Below are positions 1 to 64,000 of a stretch of DNA of 64,000 nucleotides, one piece after another (within the stretch, counting starts at the first letter, position 1; each line of letters starts with the position of its first letter). The notes under the pieces were generated by a model. The model did not search any database, had not been told where the DNA came from, and saw only the letters and a list, made by a program, of their open reading frames with translations. This DNA comes from Diplocarpon mali (lineage: Eukaryota; Ascomycota; Leotiomycetes; Helotiales; Drepanopezizaceae), in NCBI GenBank assembly GCA_024741835.1, contig JAENRP010000245.1, positions 1 to 64,000 on the forward strand, read 5' to 3'. The translations under genes and the position numbers were made by a program.

Positions 1-3000
1 ACTTTATATTATTTTAAAGGTAATATTATAAAAATTAACTTTTAAGCCAGACCTATAAGTAGATTCCTTTAAAGAAAGTGCACTTTCCGCTTTAATATAA
101 TTAAATAAGAATAGGAAGAATAATTAGACTCTTAAGCTAGGATTGCAAATGAAATTCGCGAAAATGACTTTTAAGCTAAGACTATAGGTAGAATGCAATA
201 TATCTTCGAAAATAACTCTTAAGCTAAGATTATAAATGAATTTAGTAGAAATGACTCTTAAGTTAAAACTATAAGTAGATTCTATAGATTTGCTAATAAT
301 AACTCTTAAGCTAAGATCGCAAGTGAAATTCGCAGAAATAACTCTTAAGCTAGGATTGCAAGTAAACTTCGCAGATTCGTTAAAAACGACTCTTAAGCTA
401 GGACCGCGAGTGGATCTCGCTATTTTTAAGAAATCGACTCTTAAGCTAGGCTCGCAATTAGAAAACAGCAAAACCTCGAACTGCTATTACTATTCCTTTT
501 TAATTGCCAATAATAAAGTATCGATTAATAATAGACTATTAAAGCTATTAAAAGTCGAAAGCCTATTAAAGTATTAGCTAATTTATAAAATATTTACGCA
601 TTTAAGGCTAAAGAAATTAAAAGGCTTATATAAGGTCTTAACTTTAAAATAAAAGATCTAAGTATTAAAGGATCGCTTAGTATATTGAATTTGCAAATTA
701 ATAAAACTTTAAAATTAGACGCAAACTAAGCTTAATCTATAAAAAGATTTAATACTAGCGCTAATATCTATTAATACTATTAGACTATTTATAACTTTAA
801 TTAAAGGAAATAATTGGTTTTTTTAAATAGTAGATAACTCTACTTAATAAATATAGATTATTTATATTAAGATTAAATCTAAGTTTATAAAAAAGTTAGA
901 AATTTAAAAAGTGATAAAGGAACGCTAGACTTAATTAAAGCTAATAGCTGTTAAGTCTAATAATATATTAAAGATTAAGTCAAAGCTTAATAAATAGGTA
1001 AAATAAGAAGTTTATTATAAACCAATTATAATATATAAAGGTTCTTATTAGAATAGCATTACTAAGCGAAGCATTTAATAAGTAGAGATTAACTATCGCG
1101 CTCTATTATAAGATGCTAACTTACTATTAGAATTCTAGGACCTTATAGTTAAGGTAGACGCATACTTATAAAATAGAATAAGTAATAGATTAATAGTTAA
1201 TAGCATTCGAATATCGCCTTATAAGGCATATTTCGAAGAAAAACTAAGCTTAGACTATATCTGCGTCTTTAAAAGCGTCTGCTACTCTTATATTAGCCTA
1301 AAGTCCTAGCCTATAGGTATAAAAAGTAAAAAGCTAATAGACTAAGGTAAAGAGTATATATTTATTAAATATATTAAATAGATAATAAAGTAATAGATAA
1401 TATATGCATTAGATCTAAAGTAAGTAATTATATCCTTAATAATTAAGTTCGATAAATCTTAAAATAAAAGGGAGTTATTATTAAAGCTTTATATACTTAG
1501 AGATTCGCAAGGTATACTACTTAATAGTAATACTATTAAGCCAAATTAATAACCCCTTTCTCTTAGCTTAAGTATATTAAGCGTACCTGCTAATTAATAA
1601 CCTACTAGTCGCCTAAAGGCCAAATAGACTATTCCTATTGTTTGCAAACTGCTTAAAGTATAAAATAACTTTAATATTATTATCCTTTTAATTAAAGTAA
1701 CTATAGTAAAGGATATTCTTAAACTAGGTATAAGTAATAATAAGCCTCTACTATTAAAAAGCGGTTCCTTGAATGATAAGCCTACGAAACCTATAGCCGA
1801 ACCTACGCCTTTAAAGAGGAATAAAGATTTAGAATTAGAAAATACCTTAGATAAACGTAAGTTTAAGTATATCTAAGCTATAATAGCATATAGGATCTAT
1901 AAGCTTAAACTTTAATAGAGCTTTAATAAAGATAATGTATTCCTAGCCGCTAAGAGGATAATGAAAATCTCTCTTTTAAAGATATATAATAAAGCTATTA
2001 ATAACTTAGAGAATAAAGTAATATAGAATAAGGCAATTCAAAAGGAGATAAGCTCTCTTACTATTAATAGTATATAAATAGAGGAACTAATACTAAAGGA
2101 CGTAAACCTAGTATTAATAAAGTAAGTCTTTATAATTAAAATATATATAAATAAGACCTTAAAACGTTATAAGGTAAGGCTTATAGCTAAAGGCTTCTTT
2201 TAATAGTATAAAGAAGACTACTTTAATATATTTACCCTTATAGTTTATATAAATACCCTTTGTATATTTATAGTAATAGTAGCCGCTAAGGACTTTAAAT
2301 ACAGATAGTATAATATTAAAAATGCATTTACTAAAGCGACTATAAAGGAACGGATTTTTCTCTTCTAACCTAACGGTATTCTTATATGCAATAGCCACTT
2401 TCTTTATATACTCTGCAGTATCTATAGGCTTAAGTAATCAGCCTATAATTAAAACCTCTTATATAGCTCTACTTTAGTAGAAATAGGATTCGTTTAAAGC
2501 CTAGCTAACCCTTATTTATTTACCTATGCTAAGCGTAGAATTAAGTTGCTATTATATATCGATGATATTATTATAGCTATAAAAACAACTACTTAATTAG
2601 ATTGGTTCTTTATAACTATTTAAAAACGTTTTAATACTAAGGATTTAAAGGGAATTTATAAGATCCTTAGCATCTGCGTTATAAGGAACCGCTTTATTTA
2701 AGAACTCTAGTTAAATTAAGAGTAGTATATTAAGAAGATCCTAGACTAAATAGGACTTTCTACTTATGCTCCTAACTTTAAGCCAAAGCGTACTCTAATT
2801 AAAGGAAAGTATAATAAGTTAATGCCTACTAATAAAAATAAGTAAAGAAGAGATTTAAAGAAGTACTAATAAGATATTAGAGCGATTATATATACTATAG
2901 TATATATAAGATCAGATATCGCCTTTATTATTAAGTAACTTAGTTAAAACTTAAAGGATCTAACGATTTGATATAAAAACGCAGTTAAGCGATTTAAAAG

Positions 3001-3488
3001 ATACCTTTAATTAATAATTATATAAAAGGTAAGATATAGACTAACGAAATATATAAGTATAAAGCTTAAGGTATATACTAATTCTAATTAGGCAAATATA
3101 AAAGGTTGGAAAAGTATATCTAAAAGCGTAGTAGTACTATATAGTAGACCTATATTATAAGGAAGTAAGAAGTAGAAATCAGTAGCTACTATAAGCACTA
3201 AGGCCGAATATATATTAATATTATCTAATTATAAGTAAGAATTATAGATCGCTTAAGTTTTAAAAGATATAGGTTTCGCTAAGTATATTAAATAAGATAG
3301 GAATTATATTAATCTTTAAATAGATAATATAAAGGTAATTGTACTTATAAAGAATCTATACTTATATAAGTGATTAAAATATTTTAATATTACTTACTAC
3401 TTTATTTATAACCTTATTATAAAGAATAAGTCATCGATCACTTATATTTTAACTAATTGAATAGTAGCAAATGGATTTATAAAGCTAT
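1..3488 (+). pseudogene. Ty1/copia gag-pol remnant, family A copy A1 (5' part outside window)
   Basis: This is a RIP-damaged copia polyprotein read in one frame with many TAA/TAG codons. The window edge cuts it upstream, so Gag and protease are missing. After the repeat array (38-460) come a GAG-pre-integrase/integrase zinc region (about 560-720) and the integrase core (about 740-1500). The RVT_2-type reverse transcriptase runs about 1900-2870, with LLLYIDDIIIA at 2546-2578, so both catalytic Asp codons survive. A copia RNase H follows (about 3040-3290, KAEYILILS near 3200). The C-terminus stops at 3488, where A2 is inserted; the last codons and the stop (43931-43933) lie beyond the 40-kb insertion. 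Compared with A2, this copy keeps the YIDD motif that A2 has lost. Confidence 0.92.
38..460 (+). repeat. In-frame array of nine 24-bp palindromic units in copia A1
   Basis: Units of 24 bp resembling ACTCTTAAGCTAGG followed by NNNGCAAGTG begin at 38, 128, 167, 215, 254, 302, 341, 389 and 437. Spacings are 90, 39, 48, 39, 48, 39, 48 and 48 bp, all multiples of three. The array therefore stays in the pol frame and encodes repeats of the type TLKLGxQV plus a 5- or 8-residue linker. It lies between protease and the pre-integrase domain, where copia proteins do not normally carry such repeats. The inverted copy A2 has the same array with one more 48-bp unit. Confidence 0.88.
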
Positions 3489-3684
3489 TTATTAGGCTTA
3501 AGTGAGTCGGCGCAGTAGGTAATGGAAACTTCTAAAGGTCGATAGTCGATATATTAATAAGAGTTAGGGAAGGAAGGTTACCCCTTTCTTCCCTATAGCT
3601 ATATACGTGTTAATATCCTACTAACTAAGCAGTAGGGTCATATGATAATACATTAGAGTGATAGCTATATCACTTATCTTAATA
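3489..3684 (-). repeat. 3' LTR of copia A2 (196 bp)
   Basis: In element orientation the family LTR starts TGTTGAGATGGG and ends AAGCTCAACA, so a 7-bp terminal inverted repeat (TGTTGAG/CTCAACA) is present. This copy shows the TG/CA ends mutated to TA. Other copies are at 19834-20028, 44255-44449, 44565-44759 and 44992-45186. TSD CTATT lies immediately left. Confidence 0.92.
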
Positions 3685-4005
3685 CCTCTACTCAGACCTT
3701 ACTCTAATTGACCTGCAGTTAGGAAAATAATAACTATCCTTTTGCGCTAATCTAACTCTTAAGTATCTCTTTAGATTAAAAATAATCAATTAATAGTAAC
3801 CTCTATTAAAATCACTAAATTCCACTTGCAAAGTAGGACTAGGAGTCAATTTTTCTTAAAAGTGTTCCTTTATAAGACTATATGACTTAACTCGCAGTCT
3901 AGGCCTAGGAGTCGATCTAAAAACTTTCCTCTATAAGACTATATGACCTAACTCGCAAGGCGGGCCTAGGAGTCGTCCTTAAGCCTGCTAAGCCCCTACT
4001 GTCTT
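3685..4005 (-). other. 3' UTR of copia A2 with three palindromic 24-mers and PPT
   Basis: This non-coding stretch lies between the pol stop and the 3' LTR. Three 24-bp palindromes lie at 3824-3847, 3900-3923 and 3951-3974, all in the same orientation. The last two follow a repeated TATAAGACTATATGAC-like phrase. The purine-rich run GAGTAGAGG (minus strand, about 3685-3693) abuts the LTR and is the likely polypurine tract. The same arrangement is seen in A1 (43976-44115) and A4 (45325-45475). Confidence 0.75.
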
Positions 4006-21831: not shown

Positions 21832-22302
21832 AATTGCAAGCTTGGCTTAGGAGTCGTTTTTAATAAAACCGCAAGATCTACTTGCGGTCCTAGCTTAAGA
21901 GTCGATTTCTTAGAAATAGCGAGATCTACTTGCGGTCCTAGCTTAAGAGCTGTTTTTAGCAAATCTGCGAAGTTCACTTGCAGTCTTAGTTTAAGAGTTA
22001 TTTCCGCGAATTTCACTTGCGATCTTAGCTTAAGAGTTATTATTAGCGAATCTGTAAAATCCACTTATAGGCCTAGCCTAAGAGTTATTTCTATTAAATT
22101 CACTTATAGTCTTAGCTTAAGAGTTATCTTTAAAGATACTTTGCAATCTACTTATAATCCTAGCTTAAGAGTCATTTTCGCGAATTTCACTTGTGATCCT
22201 AGCTTAAGAGTCTATCTATTTTCCCTCTTTTTACTTAATTGTATTAAGGCAAAGAGTGCACTTTCCTTAAAGGAATCCACTTATAGGTTTAGCTTAGGAG
22301 TC
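21832..22302 (-). repeat. In-frame array of ten 24-bp palindromic units in copia A2
   Basis: Units begin (plus coordinates) at 21832, 21880, 21928, 21976, 22015, 22063, 22102, 22150, 22189 and 22279. Spacings are 48, 48, 48, 39, 48, 39, 48, 39 and 90 bp, the same order as A1 read from its other end, with one additional 48-bp unit. The minus strand encodes TLKLGxQV repeats with 5- or 8-residue linkers. The unit-number difference between copies points to in-register gain or loss. Confidence 0.9.
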
Positions 22303-32933: not shown

Positions 32934-33177
32934 NNNNNNNNNNNNNNNNNNNNNNNNNNNNNNNNNNNNNNCGAGTGGATTTTAAAGAAATATATAGAAG
33001 GAGAGAGGGAAGGGGAAAGGGGGAAGTGCGGTAGTAAACGAATAAAAATAATAAAAACTCCTTTTCCTCTTTTAATAATGCGACTCTTAGTCTAAGACTA
33101 TAAGTTAAAAGCTTAAAGTTATTAAAGCTATTAAATTGTAATTTTAAAGAAAATTCAATAATAATTTCAAGTAATCC

Positions 33178-43884: not shown

Positions 43885-44254
43885 AAAGATAGTTATAAAA
43901 TTTAAAGTATTTAAAGATATACTAGGGTTATAGAAGATAGTAAGGGCTTAATAAGCTTAAGGACGACTCCTAGGCCTGCTTTGCAAGTTAGATTAAATAG
44001 TTTTATAAAGGAAAGTTTTTAAATTAACTCTTAGGTTTAAACTGCAAGTTAAGTTATATAGTCTTATAAAGGAACGCTTTTAGGAAAATTGATTCTTAAT
44101 CCTACCTTATAAGTGAAGTTTAGTGATTTTGATAAAAGTTGCTATTAATTGATTATTTTTAATTTAAAGAGATACTTAAAAGTTAGATTAATATAAAAGG
44201 ATAGTTATTATTTTTCCTAACTATAGGTTAATTAGAGTAAGGTTTAAATAAAGG
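43885..44254 (+). pseudogene. End of A1 pol and its 3' UTR
   Basis: The A1 frame resumes after 40 kb with KIVIKFKVFKDILGL and a stop at 43931-43933, matching EIVAKFEAFKDMLRL of A2. The 3' UTR carries palindromes at 43976-43999, 44037-44060 and 44092-44115, and a purine tract AAATAAAGG at 44246-44254 next to the LTR. Confidence 0.88.
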
Positions 44255-45186: not shown

Positions 45187-46845
45187 CCCTTACTTAGACC
45201 TTACTCTAATTGACCTATAGTTAGGAAAATAATAACTATCCTTTTGCGCTAATCTAACTCTTAAGTATCTCTTTAAATTAAAAACAATTAATTAATAGCA
45301 ACTTCTATTAAAATCACTAACCTTACTCGCAAGGCGGGACTAAGAGTCAAATTTTTTAAAAGCGTTCCTTTATAAGACTATATAACTTAACTCGCGGTCT
45401 AGGCCTAGGAGTCGATTTAAAAACTTTTCTTTTATAAGACTATATGACCTAACTTATAGGGCGGGCCTAGGAGTCGTCCTTAAGCCTGCTAAGCCCTTAC
45501 TATCTTTTATAACCTTAGTATATCTTTAAACGCTTTAAATTTTATAACTATCTCTAGTAGCTTTATAAATCCATTTGCTACTATTCGATCGGTTAAGATA
45601 TAAGTGATCGATAACTTGTTCTTTATAATAAGGTCGCAAATAAAGTAGTAGGCAATATTAATATATTTCAATTGCTTATATAAGTATAGATTCTTTATAA
45701 GTGTAATTGCCTTTGTATTATCTACTTAAAGATTAATACAGTTCCTATCTTATCTAATATACTTAGCGAAACCTATATCTTTTAAAACTTAGGCAATCTA
45801 TAATCCTTGCTTATAATTTAATAATATTAATATATATTCAGCTTTAGTGCTTGCGATAGCTATTGATTTCTACTTCCTACTTCCTTATAATATAAGTCTA
45901 TTATATAGTATTACTATACTTTCAAATATACTTTTCTAACCTTTTATATTTACCTAATCGGAATCGATATATACCTTAAGCTTTATACTTATATATTTCG
46001 TTAGTCTATATCTTACCTTTTATATAATTATTAATTAAAGGTATCTTTTAAATCGCTTAACTGCGTTCTTATATCAAATCATTAGATCCTTTAGGTTCTA
46101 ACTAAGTTGCTTAATAATAAAGGCAATATCTAATCTTATATATACTATTATATATATAATTACTCTAATATCCTATTAGTACTTCTTTAGATCTCCTTTC
46201 TACTTATTTTTATTAATAGGCTTTAACTTATTATACTTTCCTTCGATTGGAATACACTTTAGCTTAAAGTTGGAAGCATAAGCAAAGAGTCCTATTTAGT
46301 CTAGGATCTTCTTAATATACTACTCTTAGTCCAACTAAAGTTCTCAAGTGGAGCAGTTCCTTATAATATAGATACTAAGGATCTTATAAATTCCCTTTAG
46401 ATCCTTAGTATTAAAACGTTTCCAAATTATTATAAAGAACTAATCTAATTAAGTAATTGTTTTCGCAACTATAGTAATATTATTAATATATAGTAGCAAC
46501 TTGATTTTACGCTTAATATAAGTAAATAGATAAGGGTTAGCTAAGCTTTAAACGAATCCTATTTCTACTAAAGTAGAGCTATATAAGAGGTTCTAATTAT
46601 AAGCTGATTATTTAAGCCTATAGATACTGCGAAGTATATAAAAAGAGTAGCTAGCGCGTATAAGAATACTATTAGGTTAAAAGAGAAAAATCCGTTCCTT
46701 TATAATTACTTTAGTAAATGTATTTTTAATATTATACTATCTGCATTTAAGGTCCTTAGCAGCTACTATTGCTATAAATATGCAAAGGGTATTTATGCGA
46801 ACTATTAGCGCGAACGTATTGAAGTAGTCTTTTCTATACTATTAA
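45187..46845 (-). pseudogene. 3' UTR and pol 3' part of copia A4
   Basis: 3' UTR with three palindromes (45325-45348, 45390-45413, 45452-45475), then C-terminus, RNase H and the RT region up to 46845, where the E2 LTR cuts it. RT reads YINNI near 46470-46490. It parallels 18734-20100 of A2. The 5' part of A4 is not in the window. Confidence 0.9.
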
Positions 46846-47931: not shown

Positions 47932-48040
47932 GCACTTTTCACCTATAGGCCGGGCCCAGGAGTCAGAAAACAAAACTAGTAAAACAAACAAACAAGCTAT
48001 AGAGTCGCAAAAACAATTAAAAATAGTACTAACCCAGATG

Positions 48041-51000
48041 TCAATTTTCCTTAGTTCTCTTTAAAGGATAGGGAGAACCATCACTAGATAATACTCTCTT
48101 TATAAAGCGCTTACTTCTTCTTAATAGTTTACTATTAGTATCAGAAGAGTCCGGTCTTGGTGTTGCAAGAGCTTTAGTGTTTTATAAAGATGCTAGTATA
48201 GTTTAATAGCTTCTGCCGACAGGGAGGGAGACTTGTATCGTAGCGTTATCGTTATTATCCTCTTTATTATCATTATCATCCTCTAGAGAGTCTTCTACTG
48301 CGAAGGGGGATAAGGCAGGCAATTCAATAGACAACACTTCCTTTTCTTTGCCTTTGGTTAATATAAGTTGCGGGCCGGGCCTAGGAGTCGTATCGGAGGG
48401 TTTAGCACGAGGTTTCTTAGTGCTGTACTTTTCGAAAAGGATCGTCTTATCGATCATATTATCAGCTTTAATATCATTATTAGTGCCTTTCGTCTTAATC
48501 CAGGACTTATCCCTATATAGTTATAGCTCTAACTATTAAATCAGCTTCTAAGTGTAGGTAAAATCATCAAAAAGTTCCTACTTATACTTCTTCAGATATA
48601 TTATCAACTAAGTCATATCTTTAGAGAATAACTCCTTCACTATTATTACTACTAATAGATTGTTCCATAGCCGTTTCCCTACAAGTGCCTCTAATAGTAG
48701 GCCTCCTTTTATCATACTAAGCGTTATACAAAATTTGGCTAACGATTCTCTAGCAACACTCTATCTCGCAGTGCTAGGTCTCTTTATACCGATAGAATCG
48801 ATAAGAAAATCTTCTAAGTCTATGCCATTCTCTAGTGAGTTATTGCCAACAACTTTTATATAGTTGTTGCTAATAGTAAGAAAGCCACCTTTTCCTAATT
48901 CTCTAGCAGATTCCATATCAACGAATATGCCTTATCTAATAAATATAGAGAATAGAGTCGTCTTATTAAAGATGTACTCCTTTAGAAGTGTCTTCTCTCT
49001 AGTATTCAATTCTTTCTATTATACTGCATTTCGAGCCAGATTCAATAAGATCCATTAAGCATTCTTAAGGCGTTAGGGTATGAGATTTGATAATTCATAG
49101 GATTTTTCCTAAATAGCGAATTCTCCAGTCGATTGTTTAGCTACCAGAATCATATAGTAGTTAATAGTTCTATTATTAAGTAGATTAACCCGCGAGCCAG
49201 GCCTAGGAGTCAATCTCACAAATCTTATATTAATATCAATCTTAGTGGCAATAACTCTCAAGTGGTAGTCAATTCTAATAAACTATACAGGCTTAGGATA
49301 CGTCACTAGTTTATATAAAGACTTATATCGAGTCAGCAGAGCACCTAGGTACAATCTATAATGCATCCTCAGTATCTATTGTATTAAGCTATAAGTCATA
49401 TTATAGAGGTAGATAGAGGGAGGGTTTGGCTTCTTATCCAAGGTCCAGAAGTGGTATTAGTACATTTCTAGTTCTTCTTATACTAACGTTAAAAATGAAT
49501 TCTTTCTACGATTACTATAACCATACGTGCGCATAGCGCCTAAAAAGGCGCAGTTAAACAACTTAAGTATATTCAAAAAGCCTTTGCTATAGAATGATAT
49601 AAAGTTATCAATAGTTAGTATAGCATTATACTAGGCAGGGGTCTATACGATATTATAGAACAATTTAAGGGCTTTAAGTGCCACTTTGAACTTAGAGAAG
49701 CCTAACGATATATCCTTCTTAACTTGGCTTGCCATTCTATTGCCAATAGCTATAATTGCATGATTTCCTAAATGCAATAAAAACAAGGTCAGGTTGGGAG
49801 CAGTGCAAAATTTGTAGATATTAGACGATACATCTTCATTAGTAAGGCCTATCGTTGCCAATCCATAGTACTATATATATTAGCGTTTATAGAGGGCGCA
49901 GAACTTTTCAAAATTGAAGTCCTTAAACATTCCTATTATAAACTTTATAAGTCTTATCTTCATTTCCAATGTTACTACTATCTTAAAACTGTCGCTATGC
50001 TATAGTATTATCTTTATATTAAGGGGGACCTAATAACATTCTATAGAGATGATATTTGTATTAACTTCGGATTTCTCCTTAAGAATATAGAAGTTACCCT
50101 TCAATTTCTTATGCTTAATAAAGAACTATATAATATTATCTATAGAAAATTCGTCTTATAGCAGTTTTATAATCTACTTAACGGCTCTTATTGTCCCTTC
50201 CTATACTAATAAGACTTCTCCCCGACCTTCTTTTCTTAAACGCTTTATTATTAACTCGTAGAATTTGAGAACAAATTTTTACAGGTCATCGGGGAAAGAT
50301 TGCACGATATCGGTGGTATCCTTCTTAATATTATTAAAAATTTCTAGCATATTAGTAACAGTGCCTATTTCTTCATTAGATAATTCATCTTCTAAGTCTA
50401 TAATATCATATGTATTAACCCGTAGGCCAGGCCCGCGAGTCATTTTCTTTACTATTAGTGTTTAAGGTATTCGGGGTATTTCTAGGGATAGTGACTCAAA
50501 TTCGTCTAAGTCAAAGGAATAGTAGTCGGGCAGGTCAGCTGCTTGAATTCCTAGTGTCACAGGCACCTCCGGCTTGGAGACATTCTCCCTACGTGCTAAT
50601 TCCACTCGTAGGCCAGGCCTATAAGTCAAATTCTCCTCATCAGTTATTCCTGCCAAAGGTGGCAGCATTTTTAAAGTAATAGGGATAATAAACTCCTATC
50701 TCTCTAACTTATCGTCGAAGTAATTCATAATATACTCAGCGAGATAAGTCATCTTTTCTTTTATAATAAGTAGACTATATTGCGACTATTAAAGGCCAAG
50801 TGTATCTAGAATAGTTTAATCGGAAAGTGCAAAATTATTATACTATAAGGGTTCATCTTTTATAGTCTAAATAGTAGAGTATATAATAGTACTTAAGAAC
50901 CTAACAAATTTTCTACCTCTAATGCTATTTCCTTATAGCTTTTTCATACCTTCTTAGATGGTGAAATGATTCAACACCTATATAGCCTTTACTATAGGTT

Positions 51001-51514
51001 GGTATATCTTAAAGATTTTGCCAAGCCCTCGCAGGGCGTTATTAATAGTAATATCGATTATAAAGTAGGTCTAGAAAAGTATACTATAGGTACTACTTAT
51101 AAACTGCAACAATCTTTTTATACACTTATTCTTCTTATTTCGATTTTTCCGAAACAAATCCATAGAATTGGCATACCTTTAATATTCCTATAGAAATTTT
51201 TCATAATCGATCCCTTTTGTCTTAAGCTCATTCTTAAGAAAATCATCAAAGCCCAAAAATCCTTCTTCTATAGCAGAAATTCTATAGTTTAATACTTCTA
51301 TAGATAAGTTTAAGAATACTTGCTATTCTATTTCACCTAACGTTCTATAGGTACTCACCATATCTTCTAATAATCTCAAAGCTTTTCCATCCTATGAAAA
51401 GTTACCCTCTAACATTAGTTCGTTATTAGCAGTATTCAAGGGTTTGCTGCCTAAAGCCATAACTGATATATTCTTCTTAAGTATAGCTCTCTTACTTAAG
51501 CTCAGTGGTGCCAT
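48041..51514 (-). pseudogene. ORF-B of E2, 1,157 codons, unknown protein
   Basis: The start ATG (51514, MAPLSLSKRAILKK) and a TGA stop at 48041-48043 are exactly 1,158 codons apart. Three open stretches (50668-50462, 49861-49643, 48457-48203) share the frame, so it is one ORF with several dozen Gln/Trp-type stops. Visible are FDDFLKNELKTKGI near codon 95, a charged middle, LRMHYRLYL about codon 730, an Asp/Glu/Asn-rich acidic tail (DSLEDDNDNKEDNNDN) and a basic end (RRSKRFIKRVL, NLS-like). There is no membrane segment, RT or nuclease motif that I recognise. It is homologous over its length to ORF-A. Palindromes occur at codons of about 296, 358, 768 and 1042. Confidence 0.75.
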
Positions 51515-52076
51515 AATAAATTATTTAATAGAGGGGAGTAGTTCTAAATAAAGAGATGATTATTTAAGAAAGATTAACAACATAAGAGGCTTATACTAGA
51601 AAAGATTGATAACGAAAGACAATAGTAGTAGTACTAGTGTTATAGGTCTAGTGGGGTTGTAGAAAAAGTAAAAAAAGTAAAATCGTAGTGCAAGGAGAGG
51701 CTTATTTATAGAGTTTGAAATCGCGCTAGTGCATATAGGAAAAGTGGGTATAATAAGCTTAGAAGTAGGAACAAAAGTGGGGTGTAACGTATATAAGGAC
51801 CTACAATTAGTAAATAACAATTGTCAAAGGTAAGGAAGACATTTCAAAGGTAAGCGTTAGAAAGTTGCATACAAAGGGAATAATCAAAGAATAAATCATA
51901 TAAAGAGTAAAGTAAATAAAGAATATATATAGAATGGAATAATAGGTTAAGAATAAAGAGGTATAGGTATATAGAAAGTAGATAATCCTTAAAAATTTCA
52001 ACTTTTAATTCGCAATCTCTCTAAATGGTTTTCAAAAGGGGAAGTAGTAGACTCGATTCTCTAAGCTTAAGTCGAC
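51515..52076 (-). other. Spacer between ORF-A and ORF-B, promoter-like
   Basis: A 562-bp region without a supportable ORF, pyrimidine-rich on the minus strand. The minus strand has TATAAATAAG at 51710-51701 about 190 bp before the ORF-B start. Confidence 0.5.
51701..51710 (-). promoter_or_regulatory. TATA-like box upstream of ORF-B
   Basis: CTCTATAAATAAGCC on the minus strand in a CT-rich context, a plausible core promoter for separate transcription of ORF-B. Such strings also arise by chance. Confidence 0.35.
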
Positions 52077-55000
52077 TCAATTATCAGTTCTATTATCACT
52101 TTAGAGTCTTCTTCTCTTGCGTTAGTTCTTATTTCTTAGCGATTTCTCAGCTTTAAGGACCTCTCTTAAAGGATCTTCTATTAGTACCCCTAGATTTAGT
52201 AACCGAGGTTCATCCGAACTATCTCGTAGGCTTAAGCTAGCCAAGTCTAACCTCACTCGCAGGCCGGGCTTGCGAGTCAGTCTTAGCGTTTCTAAGCTTA
52301 AGGGTAAAAATAGGGGATTAATTCCCAAATCAGGGTCTAATACTATACTAGAGTCTCGGTTCGTCTCTTTTCCGAATTTTCTTGCAATAATGCCTTTATC
52401 AATTAGTATATTAGGCTCTCAGATAGCATTTACTTTATCGCGCTATCCCTAAGACTTAAGTCTATAAAGAAGCGACTTAGTATTTATAACATTCGTCTAG
52501 GCCTTAATAAGGGCGTTAAAGAGCTTTTAATTATATTCTATAAGGTGGATTTTCAATTCGTCTTTATTAAGAAGAAATAACTCCTGTACTTCGATTATAA
52601 CCGATAGATCCGTTTAAGAGCGTCGACTAATAATAGCTTTAAAAAGGCTACCGCAGTTCTTAAGATGAAAAGCTACCTTAAAAGGTATAGTAGTTCTACT
52701 TGCGTTAATCTATTAAAGTACTAGAGGTTGCTTTAAAGCAGAGACTGAAAAGATAAAATCGGAGATTTGAGTCTTATTTTCTAAGGTGTTCTTATTAAGG
52801 ATAGCTGTATAGTTATTGCAAAAGGCTATGAAACTACCAGTCCTATAAGAATTGTCCAAAAGCATTTTAAGAAGGTATCCCTATTTTATTATTACTATAA
52901 TTGGATTGCTATTATTAGTAATAGGTCGCAAGATCTCCTTTCGCTTTAACTTTGCGATCATTCGAGCTAGTTGAGATTTTAAACCGAGTGCCTAAGAAGT
53001 CCATCGACTCGTCTTCTTCGCAGATAGAGTGAGTTTTATAATCGACTAAGAGCCGACCCACCTATTAAGGCTTCTAGAAGCTGGCCCTTATCCGATCGGT
53101 AGGATCTGATAATCTAAGACTTGCTTTTTAATAAAATTGACTCGTAGGCTAAGACTGCAAGTGAAAATCGGAATTTCTTTATTAGTAGCACTTGCATCTC
53201 TCTTTATCGAAACGACTTGATTATAAAGACTAAAGCCAATCAATTAAAGAGGTTCAGGGTAAGCTATAAGCTAATAGGCTCCTCTACTTTTCGCTATTAT
53301 AGCTAAGAGGTAAAGTCTATAATGCATCCGAAGGACTTATTAAGTGAGGCTGAATATCATATTATAGAGAAAATAAGAAGGTATAAAGGTCGCGTTATCT
53401 ATAAAGCGGAAGTGATAAAGGTATATCTCTACTTCTTATCTTATAATAGAGAGGAATATACCTATAAAAGCACTATTATCGGTAGTAAAATTGTCGGTTA
53501 AGAAGCGGCATCCGAAGGGTTCAGGCATCACAATTGACCCTTCTTCCTCTATTTCCTCTTGCTATTTATTGCTTAATAATATCGAAAAGAAAGAATTGTT
53601 CTATTCAATCAGCTCCAATGCCTTTAAAGCTTCGGGATCAGCCTTGAATTTTATAGCACCTAGAGATGCTTCTATTATTAATAAGTTAGATTTGCGTATC
53701 CTTAAAGAGATAAAGAACTGATTATTAAAGTGGATTAGAAAAAGATTAATATCTTCTACTGCGTAAAGAAGTTCGAGGTATTTAATAGTTTCGTTAATAT
53801 CAAATCCTTTATAATTGAGATTATAGTAAACCGAAAGAGAGCGAATATAAAGGTCGCAAAGTCTTCTCCCTTCGATTCCTACGCTAGGAAGATACTATCG
53901 AAAGTGAGTCTTCATTGCAAAGGACACTTAAATATTATATTGTTCTCTAAGCTTAAGGTTGATAATGACCGATTGAGGCACATTACTACAATTACAAATG
54001 TCCTAATCAATAGATTCCTCTTTGCGTTCTCTTTCTCGCAAGATAAAATAGTCTCGCTTAGCATCCGAGAGATTAGGTTCTTAACTTCTGTAATTATTAA
54101 AGAATTGAATAATATCTATAGAGGCGAACTCGTTTAAGATAAGCCATTAAATCTATCTAACAGCTCTCTTAGTTGTCTTTAAAGCAATAGGAATAGGGTC
54201 TTCCCCTATATTATCGTTTTTAAAACAGTTGTATATAAATATAAAGAAGTCAAGAACTAGCTCCTTTAAGTTATTAGGGAAGGAGTCTAAGCGAGCGCGC
54301 AATCCTTTAGTTTCAAATTGCAAATTAGCCAAGGTAGCTATCGAACGATCTATCCTTTTTAAAGGTCGAGCCTTAAGGGGTCGTCTAGCTAAAGGAGAGT
54401 CCTTTGAAGATTTTGAAAATTCTAAAGAGGCTGCGCTAAGCGTTTAGGCAATTTGTTCGGCAGCGGTTTCTAGAATCATTTTAGCAAAAGGCAGGTTAGG
54501 TCTAGTTTTAAAATTCTCGTTTCTAACTCCTAGTCTAGGACCGCGAGTCAAATCACATAGTTTAGCACTTATCGTATCTTTAGGTTAAAAAGCGAATTTT
54601 AAGGCAGGCTTAACTATAAATAACCAATTCCCTTCTTTATTATTAAAGAAATCTCGTCTAAACTCTATTATAAGAGTCTAGTTCTCTTTTAAAATAAGCA
54701 AACTATAAGTAGAAGCGCAGAGCCTTAGCATATTAATAATAGTGCTATTAGGTAAGGTAATATCTATAGCTTAATTTAATCTTTTTATAGCCTTATCAGC
54801 TGCTATAAGTACTACATTAGATAGGCTTATAAATCTGCGACTGTGAATTCAATTGCCTTGGAATTTTACTACTCCTTCTTAAATGATAAAGAAATTAAGA
54901 ATCTAAATAGCTCTAGCGGTAGGAGTGTTTTCCTTAAGAATTTTTAATAATACTTGTCTTCTATTATTAGAATCAATATTTATTAAGAAGCGCAAACGAA

Positions 55001-55394
55001 ATAAGAGTCCTCTCTTATCAGTGGCTAAATTATCTAGTTATCGAATAGATTCTTCTCTTTTGTCTTAGTCTGTTTTAAAAGTGTCGGCCAAGGTCATATA
55101 TTAATCTGCATCAGCTAAGAATTCCTCTCTAGAGATTCCCTTTAGTCTTAATTCTTTAGTTAGGAAGTCGTCAAATTGGAGAATTCCAGGGGCCACCTAG
55201 GTTAAAAGGTTGCTAATAGTATTCGCGTAAGCTAAAAGGAGTTTTTATTACTCTATATCTCCTAAGGCTGCGTAAGTCGATTTAAAGCTCTCTAACGATG
55301 CAATAGCTCTACTATCCTAAGAGAAGTTTATAACTAGTGCTTATTCATCCCCTATTATAGTAGATAAAACCATTTGTAAGTTCTTTAAAGGCAT
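52077..55394 (-). pseudogene. ORF-A of E2, 1,105 codons, paralogue of ORF-B
   Basis: From ATG at 55394 (MPLKNLQMVLST) to TGA at 52077-52079 is exactly 1,106 codons, with in-frame stops at Gln-type positions. Correspondences with ORF-B in order: STYAALGDIE / STYRTLGEIE, FDDFLTKELRLKGI / FDDFLKNELKTKGI, YSLLILKEN / YSLLIIKEK, ALKALEL / ALKALKL, VLRMHYRLYL / ILRMHYRLYL. The C-terminus is Leu/Arg rich and ends basic (RKRRL). Palindromes at codons of about 282, 744 and 1039 encode LTRGPRLGV, FTCSLSLRV and LTRKPGLRV. No known domain seen. Its location directly after pol suggests an element-encoded accessory protein. Confidence 0.75.
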
Positions 55395-58300
55395 ATTACT
55401 TATAAAAGATAAGTAGTATAAATAAGAGAGTTCAATAGGGTATAAGAATTAAAAGGGCATATAAGCTGCAATAGGTTTACTATATATATATTAAGGAAAT
55501 TGGACTTTTTATTTATTATTTAAGGAAAGTAATAGGAATATTATAATTAAAGGCTAATATCAAGAATGCAAAATAAGTTAAAGCAAGTAAGAATTTAAAG
55601 TGATCTTAAAAGATCCATATCTTAAATAATAAAGGAAGCGACCTTACTGAAAATGTAAAAATAAGGATTAGAGGAAGGTAAGACAATTAATAGGCTAGGA
55701 AATCGTTTAGTATTCCTGCTTACGTTCTTCGGATATTTTAAGAATAATAACTTAAGGTTGCGATTAGTTAGGTATTTTAATATTCTTTACTCGTAGGACT
55801 AGCTTATAGGTCAAATTGGAAAAATCTTAGTCTTTATCCGAGGGTTCAAAATTGCTTATATCGCCGTCGGTTCCTATAGAGGATTCGGAGGTTGTATCAA
55901 TTTCTAATTCGTCTTCTAAGGGGAACAAGGTCTGGTCGCGTCGATAAAAGCGCTTTAGTCGGTTGGCTGCAAAGGTTCCTTTAATATTAACTCTATTAAG
56001 TTCCTAAAGAGAATAGTATCCCTTTTCTTTCTACTTAGATTTAACCTTAAATAGACTAAGCCATTGATAGTTAAGTTTAGTATCTACTAATATATTAATA
56101 CTTCTTGCAACGTCGTAGACTAAGATAAGATTATCTTTTCGAATAGGGTGCGTTTTAAGTACTTTAGAAGCAGCCTACGCTTCCTTAGCTTTTTCCTAAT
56201 ATCATTTCTTTTGCAAAATGATTTCCTCTATATCTATATCTCAAAGCTCAAGTTGTCGGCATCTTATTATAAGCAAATCGGAACAGTTCCGAATTTGACT
56301 ATAGTCGAATAATCTCTAAACAGGCTATTAGGATTCAAGAGGGAGCTATGCCTCTCTACTATAAATAAAGAAGAATAGTATAACTCCAGTTGGTTTATAG
56401 ATTATCGTTCGATAAGCAAAGAGTATTCTATAAAAGCGTTTTATCTAATCCTTAAATCCTCTATAAGTAACTTTAGATAGATTATTAAGAATATTATAGT
56501 GTCCTTATTCTACTACTCTATTAGCTTTCGAGTTATACGCTAAGATTTAAACCCGTTTAATACTATATTTTCGTAAGAAAGCTTCAACTACTCCTTTGTT
56601 TTTAGGGCCTCTATTAACAGTTAATCTGTTAAAAAGTCTATAGCAATAGACTACGTCTTCCTAGAGGAACTTTGCAATAGATTCAGAGTTAGCAGATCTC
56701 AAAGGTCGTCCTTTAGGCCATCCTAATAGGTCTTCCTTTACTAAAGCAAAATATATTATCCTATTCTTAATAGTTAGTACTTATATAATATTAAGGCTGA
56801 CTTTATAGAAAAGGCCTAATGGCTAGGTTAGGAATAAGGGATTTTCCTTATAACTAGGTTTTCGTTTCTAATAAGGGACGCAACTCTTTATAAAAGCTTT
56901 ACAGTCCTTAAAAGAGCCTTTCCAAAAGAATTTTCTCAAGAGTTAGTAGTAAGTAGACTTAGCTCCTTAGTGGCCAGTTTCCTTATAAATATCTTAGATA
57001 GCCTTGGCCCTTAGTTTTTCGTCGTCTAAGTAGAGTTGTATAGGGAATGAGTTATCGCTCCTTTTAAATAATCGTCTTCCTTGCACTAGATAAATCAAAG
57101 CTTTAGCTTTGAATTTCTGAAAATCCTTAAGAGCAACTGTCTTTAGTTATTTAAGCGTGACTAAAAATTTCGCGATTTCTTTAGAGTCACTTAAGTAGTT
57201 AAGTGATAAAATTCTCTTATTTGACTTACGGGTCGGGCTTAAGAGTTGAGTCCCTTTAAGGCGATATATCGATAGATAACCAACTTTGTTCTCTACCTAC
57301 TTATTAATATCTATTTCGTCTTCTTTAATTAAATCAAAGGGGTAGGGGCGAGTTCTTCTTAAAAGGCCGTTTGCAATAGTATTTTTCGTTCCTGGAATAT
57401 GTTTGACTTCAAAGTCTATTAGTCTTATCCAAGCAATCCATTTCATTAGTAAGGCTCTAGGTAGGTCGCTTATAGCTCTATTTAATTATTCTACTAGCAC
57501 TTTAGCATCGGTTTTAAGGATGAAGTAAGTATTATAAAGGTCGCTTCTTATCTTTTTCATTGCTTTCAAGGCTCCTTTGTATTCCTATTTAATAGTATTA
57601 TACTTTGTCTCTACTAGATTCTAAAGACCACTTTTAAAGTAAGCTAGATATCTTTTTTATTGGCTATTAGCTTATTAAAGGATAGTACCCTATCTGATTA
57701 AGCTTGCGTCAACTATTAGTATAATTGGCCTAGCGTCAGCTCTATAGTCTATTTTAATCAGATATAGCGCTTTAAGTAACGCTTGCTTCAATTGTTTTAT
57801 AGCCTCCATTTAGGGTTCCTCCTATTGAAACTCAGCCCCTTTCCAAAATAAGGCGTAAATAGGCGCTGCCTTTTTAGCGAAATCCTTAATCTAAATGCAA
57901 TAGTATACTATAACGCCAATGAACGCGCGAGCTTTTGCTATATCGTTATACCTCTTCTATTTGTCGATTTTAAGTACTTTAGCCCTTTAAGGACTTCGGC
58001 CATTGGAATTAGTAATGAAACTAATAATTTCTATCGATAGAAGATAGTATTATAACTTCGGACCAACCGTTGCTCCTGCCCTTTCGAATTGTATAAGCAC
58101 CTGGTCTAGGTTCTGAATATATTCTATTATAAATCGTTATATACTAGGAAGAACTTCTTTATAATTGTAGAATGATCTTAATCCTTTTACTCTTATATCG
58201 TTTATATAAGGGAGCGTAATATTAGGTATATAATCTACTAGTATCTTATAGATTACTTAGACAAATTGAGCGATCGAATTTATAGCCTCTTAAGGTAATC

Positions 58301-60849
58301 TTATTATCTGAAGTAGCCTAAGAAGGGTTTGAATTGCTATTATATCTCTTGATTTAACGTTAAGAATGAATTGGTCGTATCTAAAGAAGAAGTTAATAAG
58401 AGAGCTGTAGGTTAATCCTGCGAATTTATTTGAGAACTTATCTATATTTGGAGGAATATTGGCGTCCTTAACAGTTACTCGGTTTATCTCTACTACTGCT
58501 GTTATTAGTCTATAAGTTCCCTTCTCTTTCTTAGCAACTAGGAACCATTTGTTCCTATAAAGGCTATTACAGAACTCAAGAACTCCTTGCTTTAGCCTAT
58601 CCTTTAATATTTCGATTACCTTTTCTTAAAGAGCTTTAGGGACCTCGAATGTTTTCTCTTGCCAGGCTTTATAGGATATTGTCTTAATCTTAATATAAGG
58701 CGTAACCTCTTCTCGAATCTAGCTAAGTTCTATCTAATCAAAAGCTAAGGCGTCTTTTCGATTTGTCAAGGTTTTATAAAGTAGTTCGCGTTCTTATTCT
58801 ATTAAGTCATCTTTAATTTTTAGTATATCGAAACGTTCTTTTATTAGCCGATATCTGATAGGTTTATTAGAAAATCTGCCTATAATAAACTTATCGAATT
58901 TGCCACCCGGCTTTAGAGGTCGAAGCTTCTTATCTTATTTAAACCAATCGTTTAGTCCTCTAGGCTTTGAGCCGTCAGAGATTCCCTAATCTACCAGTTG
59001 TACTTTATCAGCCTTACTTTTATATATAGTTCGAATATTAGCTAGTACTATACTTCTCTGCTTCTTTCCTTTTTTATCAAATCCTATAAAACGGTCCGAA
59101 TTTTCCTTTTTAAAAACAAATAAAAGATTTTCTAAGTTATCAATTTGAAGTGCGTAGATAGAAATGTTATTAGTAATTTTATTATTTTTCACTTATAGGT
59201 CCGGCCCGTAAGTGGTTTTTAGGTTTTTTAAAATGATTAGTGAATTATCGAAATTTATAAAATAAACCCTCTTTTCTGCTATATTTTTCTTTTTTCTTAA
59301 TTATTAATCTGATAAAACGCCGATTGTACTATTTTTCAAAATTCCAGATTTGACTCCTAGTCCAGGACCGCAAGTCAAATCGCTATTATTCAAAATCGGC
59401 AAACTTACCTTTCTTTTGCTATAACTCCTTGCTAGGTGCCTTCCTTTACTAGCATTAAGCCTAGCCCTTATGCTAGCTAATCGTTTTTTAAAATCTTATT
59501 CTAGAATTCGGCTATATCTCCTGCAATAACCATTTGTCCTTCTAAAGATCGATCTGTATTCTAAAGACTAGCTTTTATAAGACTATCTCTAGGATAGTTA
59601 AATGTTAGCTGAGATTCTAAAATAAAGGGCATTCTTAAAAGAATATCGTTTAAAGAATTCTCTATTATTAGAAAGTTAGTATAATTAACGATTCCTCTAA
59701 CTCTAACCTTTACGTTTTTCACCTATTTATTAAAATTGTATTTCGATCTAGAGACAGTCGAATAAATAAGGAGTCGATCGCTAACGATTGTTAATTGAGC
59801 CATTTCTGCCACTTTTCTAATTATTGCATTAACTTCTAAACTACAATCGATTAGAGCCTTTGCTTTAACTGATTCTTCTATAGAACAAATAATAATAGGG
59901 CTTTTTATCGCAATTGCTAAACAATTTCAGTTGATATTCTAAGATGTTAAAGCTATTGCTATAATATTGTAGTACTTTTAGGTTCCTTTGTCTTTTGCAA
60001 TCTAAAGATATTTGATTAAGGCTAGGTGCTTCTTAGAGTTCTTTTACATTATAATTTCTATTTCCTTATTATTATTCAAATCTTTAAAGGCAATCGGGAT
60101 GTGCTTTCCTAGCACTTTATCAAAGCGTCCAGTTAAACTAAATAGGTCTTTAAATGTAAGGTTAATTTACTAGGCTATGATATTCTCTACAGCTTTCTCT
60201 ATTGCAGTTGAACTAGCGTATTTATTAATGAATTTTTCCTGTTTTAATATCTGTCTCTTTCGCTTAAGGTCAAGGGTCCGCGTAATAACTTCGACTTCTT
60301 AATCTTTAAGCTTAAAGCCATCTTCGTCTATTATATCTCTAATCAATTCGTCTGCCATATCGGCTTTATCCTCGTCCACTATAGTTCCAGATTATTAGGT
60401 GTCTTTTAGCGTTTGGACTCTATATTAAGATTCTTGAGTTGCATGCGTTAATTTCTGGACTTTAGCTGGTTTTATTAGTATTAGGGGAGTAGTAGATCTA
60501 GAAGGACGCTGAGTATTCTAAGGGTTTTTAAATATAGAAGTAGCATTAATATTAGCAGATATATTATTATTAACCCATCCTAAGACTAAGATGCCTCTAA
60601 CTTCTATAGCTATTTAATTAGAAGCTGGGTCCTTAAGAACTCCCTTAGGTAAGTTGCTAATTGGACTTATATATATATAAGTTGGAATTTTAGCATTTAT
60701 ATCTATAATATACTATCGTTCGACTAAATTCTCGTCCTATTTCGTACTATATATCATTGTTTGAATAGTCTATAACCATAAGCGATTCTAGTGCTTTTTA
60801 ATAGGGATAGCTTCTAGCCTAGGATCTTTAATACAAAGCATCCTATACT
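55395..60849 (-). pseudogene. pol of E2 (protease, RT, RNase H, integrase)
   Basis: Protease is at about 59860 (ALIDCSLEVNAI) with NDILLRMPF near 59640. Next comes a linker, open at 59192-58986. Reverse transcriptase spans about 58620-58000: EFCNSLYRNKWFLVAKKEK, INFFFRYDQF (from DFFSGYDQ), and LPYINDIRVKG at about 58187-58220. RNase H starts near 57710 (LIVDASLI) and includes KHIPGTKNTIANG near 57390. The integrase zinc region TGH...YQ (about 56985-56880) precedes the core with LLGWPKGRPLRSANSES (about 56720-56670) and NRVVEQGHY-like residues (about 56500). The end of pol is uncertain; sequence between about 55650 and 55395 shows no ORF and acts as the spacer before ORF-A. Confidence 0.9.
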
Positions 60850-62290
60850 TATTAATATATATAACCCTAATGTTAATAAAATAATAGAAAAGAGGGCAAT
60901 CGTTGCGATACTTATATAAAGCGTAGTTAGGTTCTTCGTTATTGCAAAAGTTGCAGGTTAGTCGTCTTCTATTGCCATTCCCTTAGTACCCTATAGTATT
61001 GATATTAGCAGAGTGCTAGTTGGGATTAATTTCTCCTTCTTCAGTTAATTGTTGAGTTCTTATATTAGCTAGTTGTTCTAAATAATAAGAAGTAGGAATC
61101 TAGTAATAGGAACTACTATATTAGCTTGTAGTGGCCGAGTTTTGCCTATTACTAAATTAGGGAATATGCTGTTTTTCCTATAAGAGATCATTAATCCTAG
61201 TTTCTAAGCTCTAGATTCAGAGTTCTGCAAATTAGGTCTTAAGTTCCTTAATTCTAAGGTTGGATCTTACTCTTAAGTCAGGCCCGCGAGTGAAAGGTAT
61301 GACTACTAGGTTCTTCTTTGCCTCCTCTATGACTTCCAGAGCTTTCGAGTGTTCTTAGACCAAATTCTTAAGGTCTTTAGTATAAGAGGGAGTAGGGGCT
61401 TTTTCCTACTCTATAGTATTAATAGTTCTCTTACTAAGATCTGACTTTAAAGCAAAGGCCGAGAATTCCTCAAATAAGGCAAAGGTTATAGGGTCTTGCT
61501 TATCGATTCTAAAATGCTTGATAATCTTGTTTCGGAGGCTAGTGGGTAATCCGAGCAAGAAAAGACAGCCTCTTTCAACTTCGCTAAGTATTTTCTAGCT
61601 AATTAAGGTGTTCGACATATAAGTAAAAGTCCGATAGTAGTTCTTAAGTTCCTTGGCAGTACGAGTGATCAGAATAAATTCCTTTAAGAAAGCCAAGGTA
61701 TCGCGAATCTGCTATCTATCAAATTCTCGGAATTTAGATTTAAGGGCCTTAATAAAGAGTTCCTATAAACCATGAGTTTTCCATTCAAGGAGGGACTTGA
61801 TAATATCCTTACTTATATGATTATAGTAGCAAGGAAGTCGAGAAATCATATCCTCTTATATAATACCAAAATTGTAATAAGTTTCCTTATATTGCTTAAG
61901 GAAATCAGTAATATTAGCGCCTATAAAGTGAGGAGCACCAGGAGAACTAGGGAGGGGAAAGTGACTAGTAACAGCCCTAAATGCGGCTATTATCGTTTTA
62001 TACTAACTGTCTGGGTTAATAGAATCTATAGGGGGTAAAGGGGAAGCTTTGATATTGCGAGATTGATTGCTAAGAGGAGTACTTTGAAATTCAAAAGGGT
62101 TTAAAGAACGTTTAAAATCCAAGTCAATCTTAGAGTGACTAGGACGAGTTTAAAAAGATTCAAATAAAGGGTTAGTGAAAAGTTTAAAATTGTTATTGTT
62201 TTTAGTATTTTCTAATATCGATATTGAAAAAGTAGGTAGTAGTCCTAAGTTGTTTAAGGACGTCTTTTTATCCTCCTACTCGTAGGCTAG
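60850..62290 (-). pseudogene. gag of E2
   Basis: Readable from about 62250: SSPGAPHFIGANITDFLKQ (near 61950-61890), YYNFGIIQEDMISRLP, then LAFLKEFI and LPTSLRNKIIKHF (near 61500), typical of a fungal gypsy Gag family. A palindrome at 61269-61292 is in frame (FTRGPDLRV). A zinc knuckle CNFCNNEEPNYA...CP lies near 60960-60920. A few stops only. It appears to run in the same frame into protease. E1 and E3 carry homologous Gag regions. Confidence 0.85.
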
Positions 62291-62301
62291 GCCTAGGAGT
62301 A

Positions 62302-62957
62302 GAATTCCGGATTCCACTAAAAGTTTAATCCGAGTTTGCCAAGAGATTTTAAGTAGGTGCTAAACAGCTAATAGGAGCGTTGCAACTAATCGCAATAAGA
62401 TAAGGTTTACTTAATTAAGGACCAATTTCTAAGATAAGGTTTGTATCTAAGATTCTTCTTAGCCTCTAGGCCAGTTCCTATTGGTCCTTAGAATAAAGGG
62501 GTCTCTGGAGACGATTCTAAGGCAATTTTTAGAGTTCTATCTAGCTAAGGCGGCTGAATTATCAGATTCGGATTTCTAAGGATTCTGCAGAGACACTTCC
62601 GATTGGAGTTTGCGCTTAGTATTACTTAAGTACTTGAAACCACCGCTATTAGAGATTGCTATTATAGGGTTTGTCAAACTTTTCATATTGAAAAGCCGAA
62701 AATTCCGAGAATCTCAGAGTTAAGGAAGAAAATAGGGGTTTTTAAAGCAGAGCCGAAAAGGGAAAATCTAAGGTTGTTAATAGTTGCTAAACGAAAATCG
62801 ATAGTTCTAAGTAACTAGGCGATTAAGGATAAGGGTTTTAGAGTTAATTAAAATGCTATAAGTGTTTCAAAGACGTATTTCAAAGGCCGGTCTCTTATCT
62901 GCGAACTAAGAGATCGATAAGGTCGTATAGGGATAGAAATCTCAAGAAATCGGTCCC
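62302..62957 (-). other. E2 leader between 5' LTR and gag
   Basis: About 650 bp with no supportable ORF. One palindrome (62278-62301) lies at its gag end. Similar sequence precedes gag in E1 (about 34520-35210). Confidence 0.6.
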
Positions 62958-62958
62958 T

Positions 62959-62971
62959 GCGTAGGTTACTA
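62959..62971 (-). other. Primer-binding site of E2
   Basis: The minus strand reads TAGTAACCTACGC one base inside the LTR. E1 has TAGTGACTTACGC. Reverting one RIP change gives TGGTGACTTACGC, the start expected of a site complementary to a tRNA 3' end (CCA). The tRNA was not identified. Confidence 0.55.
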
Positions 62972-62972
62972 A

Positions 62973-63218
62973 TATAAAATAGAAGGGAGACAACACAAGA
63001 ATAGGCCTAAGGGAAGACTTAAAAACAAGAGGAGGAAGCACTACAAGCGGGCTCTCCTAGATAAGATATTAAGAACAAGTCCTAAGTATAGGGTATATTC
63101 AGTACTATAGCGACACGCGCTATCTCTATATACAGAAAGTGGCCCTTTTATCCTCCTACCGGCCTGCGCCGATCATATGATATATATCACAAGACCTATC
63201 CATCTCAGGTCTCCATAG
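62973..63218 (-). repeat. LTR shared by E2 (5') and E3 (3')
   Basis: Plus-strand start TATAAAATAGAAGGG, end AGGTCTCCATA. It serves as the E2 5' LTR (PBS on its left) and, because the E3 3' end phrase CTTAACTAACTTAAG follows directly, also as the E3 3' LTR. It is a different subfamily from the other E LTRs, with CCTACCGGCCTGCGCC in place of their downstream segment. Confidence 0.8.
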
Positions 63219-64000
63219 TATATATGCCTTAACTAACTTAAGAGGCGTCCTTGCTAAAGAAAATTTAGGCTTTATATAAAATTCGATTGATAATTTAGGA
63301 ATTCCTTTAATATAGCCGTTTATTAAGCCTTTTTAAGGTAGCAACTCGCTTATTTAACCTAAGGGAAGCTAGATTTAGGTATTTAGAGTTTGCATATTAG
63401 TTTTTACCTTTTAAAGCCTATCGATTTCCAAACTAAAGGGCGTAATAAGTTTTCTAAAGAAGGCCTTCGATTAAGGTTTCCAAATGTTAAATGCGGAGTT
63501 TAGAAAACTAGGCTTCGAGTTCCTTGATTTTTAAAGTAGATTTCACTCTTAGGCTAGGACTATAAGTAAAGGGAATTACTACTGGATTTCTCTTTGCCTC
63601 TTTAGTAACCTTTAGAGCCTTTAAATATTCTTATACTAGGCTTTTAAGATCTTTAGTAAAGGAGGAGGTAGGCTCTTTTTCTTTCTCTATTACTTTAATA
63701 GTCCTTTCGCTAAGGTCTGATTTCAAAGCGAAGGTTAAGAAGTCTTCGAATTAAGCGTATATTATAAGATCCTACTTATTAACTTTAAAATGTTTGATAA
63801 TCTTATTTTAAAGGCTAATAGGCAATTTAAGTAAGAAAAGGCGTCCTCTTTCAACTTTATTAAGAATCTTTTAATCGATTAAGGTATTAGACACTTAAGT
63901 AAAGGTCTAATAGTAGTTTTTAAGTTCCTTAAGAGTGCGAGTAATAAGAATAAACTCCTTTAGAAAGGCTAGAGTATTGCAAATCTGCTATTTATCAAAT
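63219..64000 (-). pseudogene. gag 3' part of E3, continues beyond the window
   Basis: Nearly the same sequence as 33178-33980 of E1: the extended Gag end, a palindrome at 63545-63568, and the SLRNKI-type block. No pol lies between this Gag and the LTR, so E3, like E1, is a gag-only form. Confidence 0.8.

Follow-up and report, generated by a model that had tools for sequence, protein, structure and literature searches.

We analyzed a 64,000-nt stretch of Diplocarpon mali DNA (contig JAENRP010000245.1, forward strand; hereafter the window), in which a short palindrome recurs within two families of long terminal repeat (LTR) retrotransposons, copia A and gypsy E. Gypsy E is present as E1, which carries two accessory genes, ORF-A and ORF-B, placed after pol (48000-55298), and as the shorter E2. 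The window bears the marks of repeat-induced point mutation (RIP), with a TpA/ApT ratio of 1.46 and a ratio of CpA+TpG to ApC+GpT of 0.59. Domain names in these RIP-damaged elements were assigned by eye from known motifs; Pfam returned only Pol_BBD for copia A, below its cut-off.

The palindromic site and its half-sites

The first-pass annotation had described an imperfect 24-bp palindrome dispersed over at least 35 places. The dispersed palindrome is real: a symmetric weight matrix (29.5 bits, derived from these same sites, with its threshold set one bit below the best of 30 Markov-simulated windows) located 45 distinct places in the window. The unit is, however, 23 bp long rather than 24 and has the form 11-1-11, two 11-bp arms around one central base (ACTC-N-YR-GKCC-W-GGMC-YR-N-GAGT). 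The arm triplets GCA and CTA, first given as the two alternatives, are only the commonest of several, since arm position 5 is nearly free. For the copia A triplet reported at 43976, 44037, and 44092, the matrix accepted two sites, at 43966 and 44027; the third did not exceed the threshold.

We rejected chance as the origin of the number of sites. A search with the IUPAC form ACTYRCRRKCYWRGCYTARGAGT, allowing ≤3 mismatches, gave 45 rows corresponding to 42 distinct places in the window (three match on both strands), against 0.08 matches expected in shuffled sequence. Across the 49.37-Mb assembly, one IUPAC form had 2,265 exact matches (1,192 + 1,073), and the control pattern, read backwards, had none. 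Rfam returned no match at the gathering threshold, and the single IMG/VR match, on a GC-rich viral contig, was judged to be chance. Searches of the open-licence PubMed Central (PMC) literature brought up no description of comparable sites, the arm sequence retrieved unrelated papers only, and the term "palindrom" was absent from the Diplocarpon genome papers checked.

Positions 2, 3, 10, 14, 17, 18, and 20-23 of the site are nearly invariant. The second base beyond the 23-bp unit, read outward, is a purine at 55 of 56 cluster ends, followed on each side by a weak symmetric wing of ∼5 less conserved, RRWTY-like bases. The two arms are often of different types: 29 of 35 flank clusters (defined below) combine one G-type and one C-type arm, compared with ∼17 expected from independent arms, and in the other six, which all belong to E1, both arms are G-type. 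Variation at position 9 is independent of that at position 15 (Fisher P = 0.69), and positions 5 and 19 are noncomplementary in 31 of 35 clusters; a pair of half-sites therefore fits better than a base-paired stem. Half-sites belong to complete sites: 81 of the 90 within the 45 window sites score at least 8 bits, and elsewhere in the window they occur at chance frequency (37 vs. 42.6 expected at 8 bits, SD 6.6; 2 vs. 2.85 at 14 bits).

Distribution over element families and coding contexts

All 45 window sites lie in the 33.4 kb assigned to copia A, gypsy E2, and the E1 stretch. Copia A accounts for 27 of them over 13,242 bp, gypsy E2 for 3 over 2,964 bp, and the E1 stretch for the other 15 over 17,159 bp, of which one belongs to an interrupted E2 copy. 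The remaining 30,635 bp contain none, bearing out the earlier observation that families B, C, D, and F lack the site. Restriction to two families proved an undercount. In twelve 10-kb genome stretches, picked because they contain sites (5 to 16 rows each), we also found sites in copia H, a ∼5.57-kb element with LTR-like ends, and in gypsy I, a relative of the site-free gypsy D of the window (12700-15850, minus strand; 42-46% identity in reverse transcriptase, RT). Eight consecutive gene-rich 10-kb stretches (80 kb, GC 48-55%) held no site at ≤3 mismatches. TpA/ApT was 1.43-1.46 in the window and two site-rich stretches vs. 0.66-0.76 in three gene stretches. A host UBA-domain protein has 97% identity to Diplocarpon coronariae and 85% to D. 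rosae, which places the fungus in Diplocarpon.

At ≤4 mismatches, 185 sites were found, of which 182 had complete flanks and fell into 28 flank clusters; a tighter rule gave 35 clusters. Once tandem and homologous positions were merged by hand, ∼22 were left. Homology of the surroundings thus accounts for sites within families but was rejected as an explanation across families, and the possibility, raised at the outset, that flanking homology would explain every site or that sites would be no commoner than in shuffled sequence did not hold.

Placement in both coding and noncoding sequence, as first described, was also confirmed. Most E1 sites and the copia A array are within reading frames. 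The contexts include gag; the protease-RT, RNase H-integrase, integrase-RT, and zinc knuckle-protease linkers; ORF-A and ORF-B; and, outside coding sequence, leaders and 3′ untranslated stretches (Table 1). Sites in the first copia A array are mostly 39 or 48 bases apart, and array units in general measure 39/48 and 45-54 bases. The three sites before the copia A 3′ LTR are spaced 66 and 61 bases apart and therefore do not share one reading frame.

Table 1. Palindromic sites and the elements that carry them in the window
Positions	Element	Feature	Basis
38..459	copia A	Coding array, nine sites: 38, 128, 167, 215, 254, 302, 341, 389, 437	Weight matrix; Tandem Repeats Finder
3824..3973	copia A	Three sites directly before 3′ LTR: 3824, 3890, 3951	IUPAC search and matrix
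21832..22211	copia A	Coding array, second copy, nine sites: 21832, 21880, 21928, 21976, 22015, 22063, 22102, 22150, 22189	Tandem Repeats Finder; matrix
22279..22301	copia A	Lone site adjoining array	Matrix
33083..33105	gypsy E2	Site near 3′ LTR	Matrix
33500..33522	gypsy E2	gag site, counterpart of 61269	Matrix; E1/E2 comparison
34494..34516	gypsy E2	Leader site, counterpart of 62278	Matrix; E1/E2 comparison
43966..44049	copia A	Inverted copy, two sites: 43966, 44027	Matrix (44092 below threshold)
45325..45474	copia A	Three sites: 45325, 45390, 45452	Matrix
47935..63220	gypsy E1	RIP-damaged copy, minus strand, ∼15.3 kb	
47941..47963	gypsy E1	Site near 3′ end, adjoining assembly gap	Matrix
48000..51400	gypsy E1	ORF-B, minus strand, unknown protein, many stops, paralogue of ORF-A	
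48366..48388	gypsy E1	ORF-B site, TPRPGPQL	Matrix
49188..49210	gypsy E1	ORF-B site, TPRPGSRV; aligns with 53140 even with both masked	
50418..50440	gypsy E1	ORF-B site, TRGPGLRV; no ORF-A counterpart	
50604..50626	gypsy E1	ORF-B site, TYRPGLRV; when masked, ≤3 residues from counterpart of 54526	
51950..55298	gypsy E1	ORF-A, minus strand, unknown protein, many stops, paralogue of ORF-B	
52255..52277	gypsy E1	ORF-A site, TRKPGLRV; empty copies sought genome-wide	
53140..53162	gypsy E1	ORF-A site, TCSLSLRV	
54526..54548	gypsy E1	ORF-A site, TRGPRLGV	
55789..55811	gypsy E1	Site at C-terminal end of pol, TYKLVLRV	Matrix
57224..57246	gypsy E1	RNase H-integrase linker site, other frame, LLSPTRKS; empty copies sought	
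59191..59213	gypsy E1	Protease-RT linker site	Matrix
59353..59375	gypsy E1	Protease-RT linker site, TCGPGLGV	Matrix; folded
61269..61291	gypsy E1	gag site, TRGPDLRV	
62278..62300	gypsy E1	Leader site	Folded
63545..63567	gypsy E2	gag site of interrupted copy	Matrix

Three observations concern the structure of the gypsy E copies. The E2 element at 32514-35477 is a short gypsy element in which gag is present and the LTR-like ends leave no space for pol; it is perhaps nonautonomous. E1 ends at 63220-63223, which is also the break point of the other E2 copy, and E1 appears to have inserted in E2. Beside the N gap at the E1 3′ end, the segment 46842-47935 is 88% like the E2 LTR vs. 72% like the E1 5′ LTR, so that this join may be misassembled.

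Age, array turnover, and insertion history

ORF-A and ORF-B are diverged paralogues, 32% identical over 935 residue pairs (the alignment scores 912, and 50 shuffles reached at most 98). The three ORF-A sites each have an aligned partner among the four ORF-B sites. When the sites were masked, under four gap settings, the pair 53140/49188 still aligned exactly and 54526/50604 came within 3 residues. Purine/pyrimidine identity at the three aligned pairs is 62/69 vs. 2,049/2,937 elsewhere (P = 1.5 × 10^-4), and at third codon positions it is 18/21 vs. 593/981 (P = 0.022); 11% of other 23-base windows reach 20 matches. Two weak matches of ORF-A/ORF-B to RNA polymerase subunits (E ∼0.9) were judged to be chance.

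Sampled copies differ from each other, away from sites, by 10.7% transitions and 0.64% transversions, RIP transitions being dominant. At the sites, they differ only by gain or loss of whole site-plus-spacer units, seen in arrays and triplets. A fourfold difference first estimated as a sign of selection on the core was withdrawn, because it stemmed mainly from the comparison of tandem units and from selection of sites by pattern, and raised divergence near single sites was confounded by nearby arrays. The comparison of E1 with E2 was uninformative as a test of age.

Of the proposed minute mobile or recombinogenic sequence, the second half holds in part, in that arrays gain and lose units; present-day mobility found no support. 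Patterns for the empty junctions of E sites 52255 and 57224, allowing transitions and two mismatches, had no match in the genome; the right flank of 52255 alone, the one flank that served as control, had 239. Clean absence was likewise not found at homologous positions among sampled copies, array units apart, and protein searches with two site-bearing pieces found no site-free relatives. Direct repeats around sites exceeded permuted pairings at lengths 4, 8, and 12 (P ∼0.02), but not at 2, 3, 5, 6, or 10 (P = 0.18-0.78), with no excess of inverted repeats. Hence no consistent target-site duplication, the hallmark of miniature inverted-repeat transposable elements, was found at 2-12 bases.

Candidate functions and origins

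We tentatively favor reading the site as an old multicopy cis signal, a putative DNA site of a dimeric protein, in four or more families of LTR retrotransposons (copia A and H, gypsy E1/E2 and I). Judged from sequence, this is quite possible, though somewhat short of an even chance. A shared protein or nucleic-acid binding site had been the other suggestion of the first-pass annotation, and it is the half that fits best: in sampled copies, site positions are fixed within each family, each pair of half-sites is complete with a fixed spacing, both orientations are present, sites occur in coding and untranslated sequence alike, and two places match between genes only 32% identical. We prefer a dimeric protein because only complete pairs occur, their spacing is fixed in either orientation, the half-sites vary independently, arrays form, the sites are restricted to certain families, and they persist in diverged genes.

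Under such a reading, a sequence-specific dimeric protein, encoded by an element or by the host, would bind the site and would help the families that carry it, for example by countering silencing or gathering element DNA; site-free families would not use that protein. Sites would sit where 24 bases are tolerated without harm to the encoded protein. The signal would most likely have entered each family by a rare insertion and then multiplied there through local tandem duplication.

Several results weigh against this. Fourteen of 15 coding positions (hand count) share one reading frame, which a pure DNA signal would not predict. The site identity between ORF-A and ORF-B is partly circular, because both members of a pair were picked as motif matches, and the third pair, 52255/48366, lies in a tail that is unalignable when masked. 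No constraint is visible between copies, where core transversions stand at 0.0066-0.0071 vs. 0.0064 far away, and site identity between E1 and E2 (0.957) is unexceptional, 42% of windows being equally high. No binding protein was found; the ORF-A and ORF-B pieces searched gave neither a Pfam match at E 10 nor a convincing solved structure. As to origin, gypsy I carries, in its RNase H-integrase linker, two sites within a stretch of ∼24 residues that has no counterpart in gypsy D, although the linker is variable anyway. Gypsy D is also shorter around the other site pair of gypsy I, and these differences are the best hint of a past insertion.

Past insertion is the main rival, and it may likewise explain how a subsequently retained site arose. 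In this account, which we consider rather unlikely, a 23- to 24-bp miniature mobile palindrome once inserted into several families and has since been carried by its host elements as a fossil, which linkers could accommodate, since 24 bases leave the frame intact. Unrelated flanks, both orientations, and positions in protein linkers would be expected of it, and the common arm asymmetry and the stretch missing from gypsy D agree with it. The arm type differs, however, at aligned ORF-A/ORF-B sites, so the asymmetry is not strictly inherited; moreover, no empty site was found at either E position searched, repeats around sites do not amount to a consistent duplication, and copia B, gypsy D, the other window DNA, and the 80 kb of gene-rich DNA have no sites.

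An RNA hairpin acting in the transcript, for instance in packaging, dimerization, or stability, is improbable. Five of the six sites tested do surpass shuffled sequence in folding (z = -2.7 to -3.4), in keeping with the hairpin-forming character first ascribed to them, and the locations of sites include leaders and 3′ untranslated stretches besides coding sequence. Yet the sixth does not fold (z = 0.47), the arms neither covary at 9/15 nor complement each other at 5/19, and, by hand assignment, sites lie in both orientations relative to transcription.

The common frame bears on a further alternative, selection for an octapeptide, T-x-(R/K/G)-(P/L)-G-(L/P)-(R/G/Q)-V, with the DNA palindrome secondary. 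Sites in this frame encode T-x-x-P/L-G-x-x-V-like octapeptides; tested on 12 of 13 positions against one half, the bias gives P = 0.0017. A common frame would fit a peptide that is harmless and merely tolerated, and equally one that has a role. Selection on the peptide is nonetheless very improbable, given the sites in leaders, the apparently noncoding groups before the copia A 3′ LTR, the E1 coding site in another frame (57224), and the equal fixation of degenerate codon positions (T3, A18, and A21 in 28-29 of 29). Least probable is functionless exchange between families by recombination or template switching among coexisting elements: the same asymmetric form does occur in several families and arrays recombine readily, but exchange tracts should leave cross-family flank homology around sites, and there is none.

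Among known systems, the nearest parallel to a protein-bound site is VANC and its motifs in the VANDAL transposons of Arabidopsis. VANC, an element-encoded protein that counters silencing, has been proven to bind 9-base motifs in noncoding parts of these DNA transposons (PMC5735166). Like the VANC targets (PMC5735166), the fungal site is a short motif with many copies per element, abundant in particular families (45 in copia A and gypsy E) and rare in others (0 in 30.6 kb of the window and in the gene-rich DNA), and it forms tandem arrays whose unit number varies between copies, as seen in the array and triplet differences. In contrast to those targets, it is a 23-bp palindrome with a putative binding protein, spans two LTR-retrotransposon superfamilies, and is not mainly noncoding but occupies coding linkers as well.

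Mitochondrial GC clusters, such as yeast GC42 and other fungal palindromes, resemble the site as short, GC-rich palindromes scattered in many copies through AT-rich DNA; they show presence/absence differences between strains and an AG target dinucleotide (PMC4478555, PMC7218506). The fungal sites differ in lying in RIP-marked LTR retrotransposons on nuclear-type contigs, with no presence/absence difference found (among sampled copies, and genome-wide at two positions) and no consistent target duplication. Rickettsia palindromic elements are ∼100-150 bp long. They too place palindromic units in frame within unstructured parts of proteins (PMC2996958), but they are bacterial and lie in host genes, whereas the fungal unit is 23 bp, resides in retrotransposons, and also occurs outside coding sequence; the eight gene-rich stretches contained none. 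PARCEL, a 75-base coding repeat with a 25-residue amphipathic pattern, shares tandem coding repetition, dyad symmetry, and association with mobile-element genes (PMC2996958), but the fungal units differ in length and encode a different peptide. The fungal copia element GalEa also has a palindrome, a single 9-bp site at the junction with the 5′ LTR that is believed to serve in priming reverse transcription (PMC5445492), unlike the many 23-bp sites inside both copia and gypsy elements here.

If the site does bind a dimeric protein, copia and gypsy elements might share one recognition code, with about a dozen long palindromes per element and a single dimeric reader, possibly encoded by ORF-A/ORF-B, and some families might exploit the factor of another, as with VANC within VANDALs but across two superfamilies. 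We regard this extended proposal as unlikely. A protein site would nevertheless mean a transposon recognition system common to LTR-retrotransposon superfamilies in a RIP-marked genome, and a fossil mobile unit would be a nuclear counterpart of the mitochondrial palindromic elements. In both cases, elements with no relationship to each other have come to carry, by convergence or by sharing within one genome, a long exact sequence of a kind that ordinary transposon annotation overlooks.

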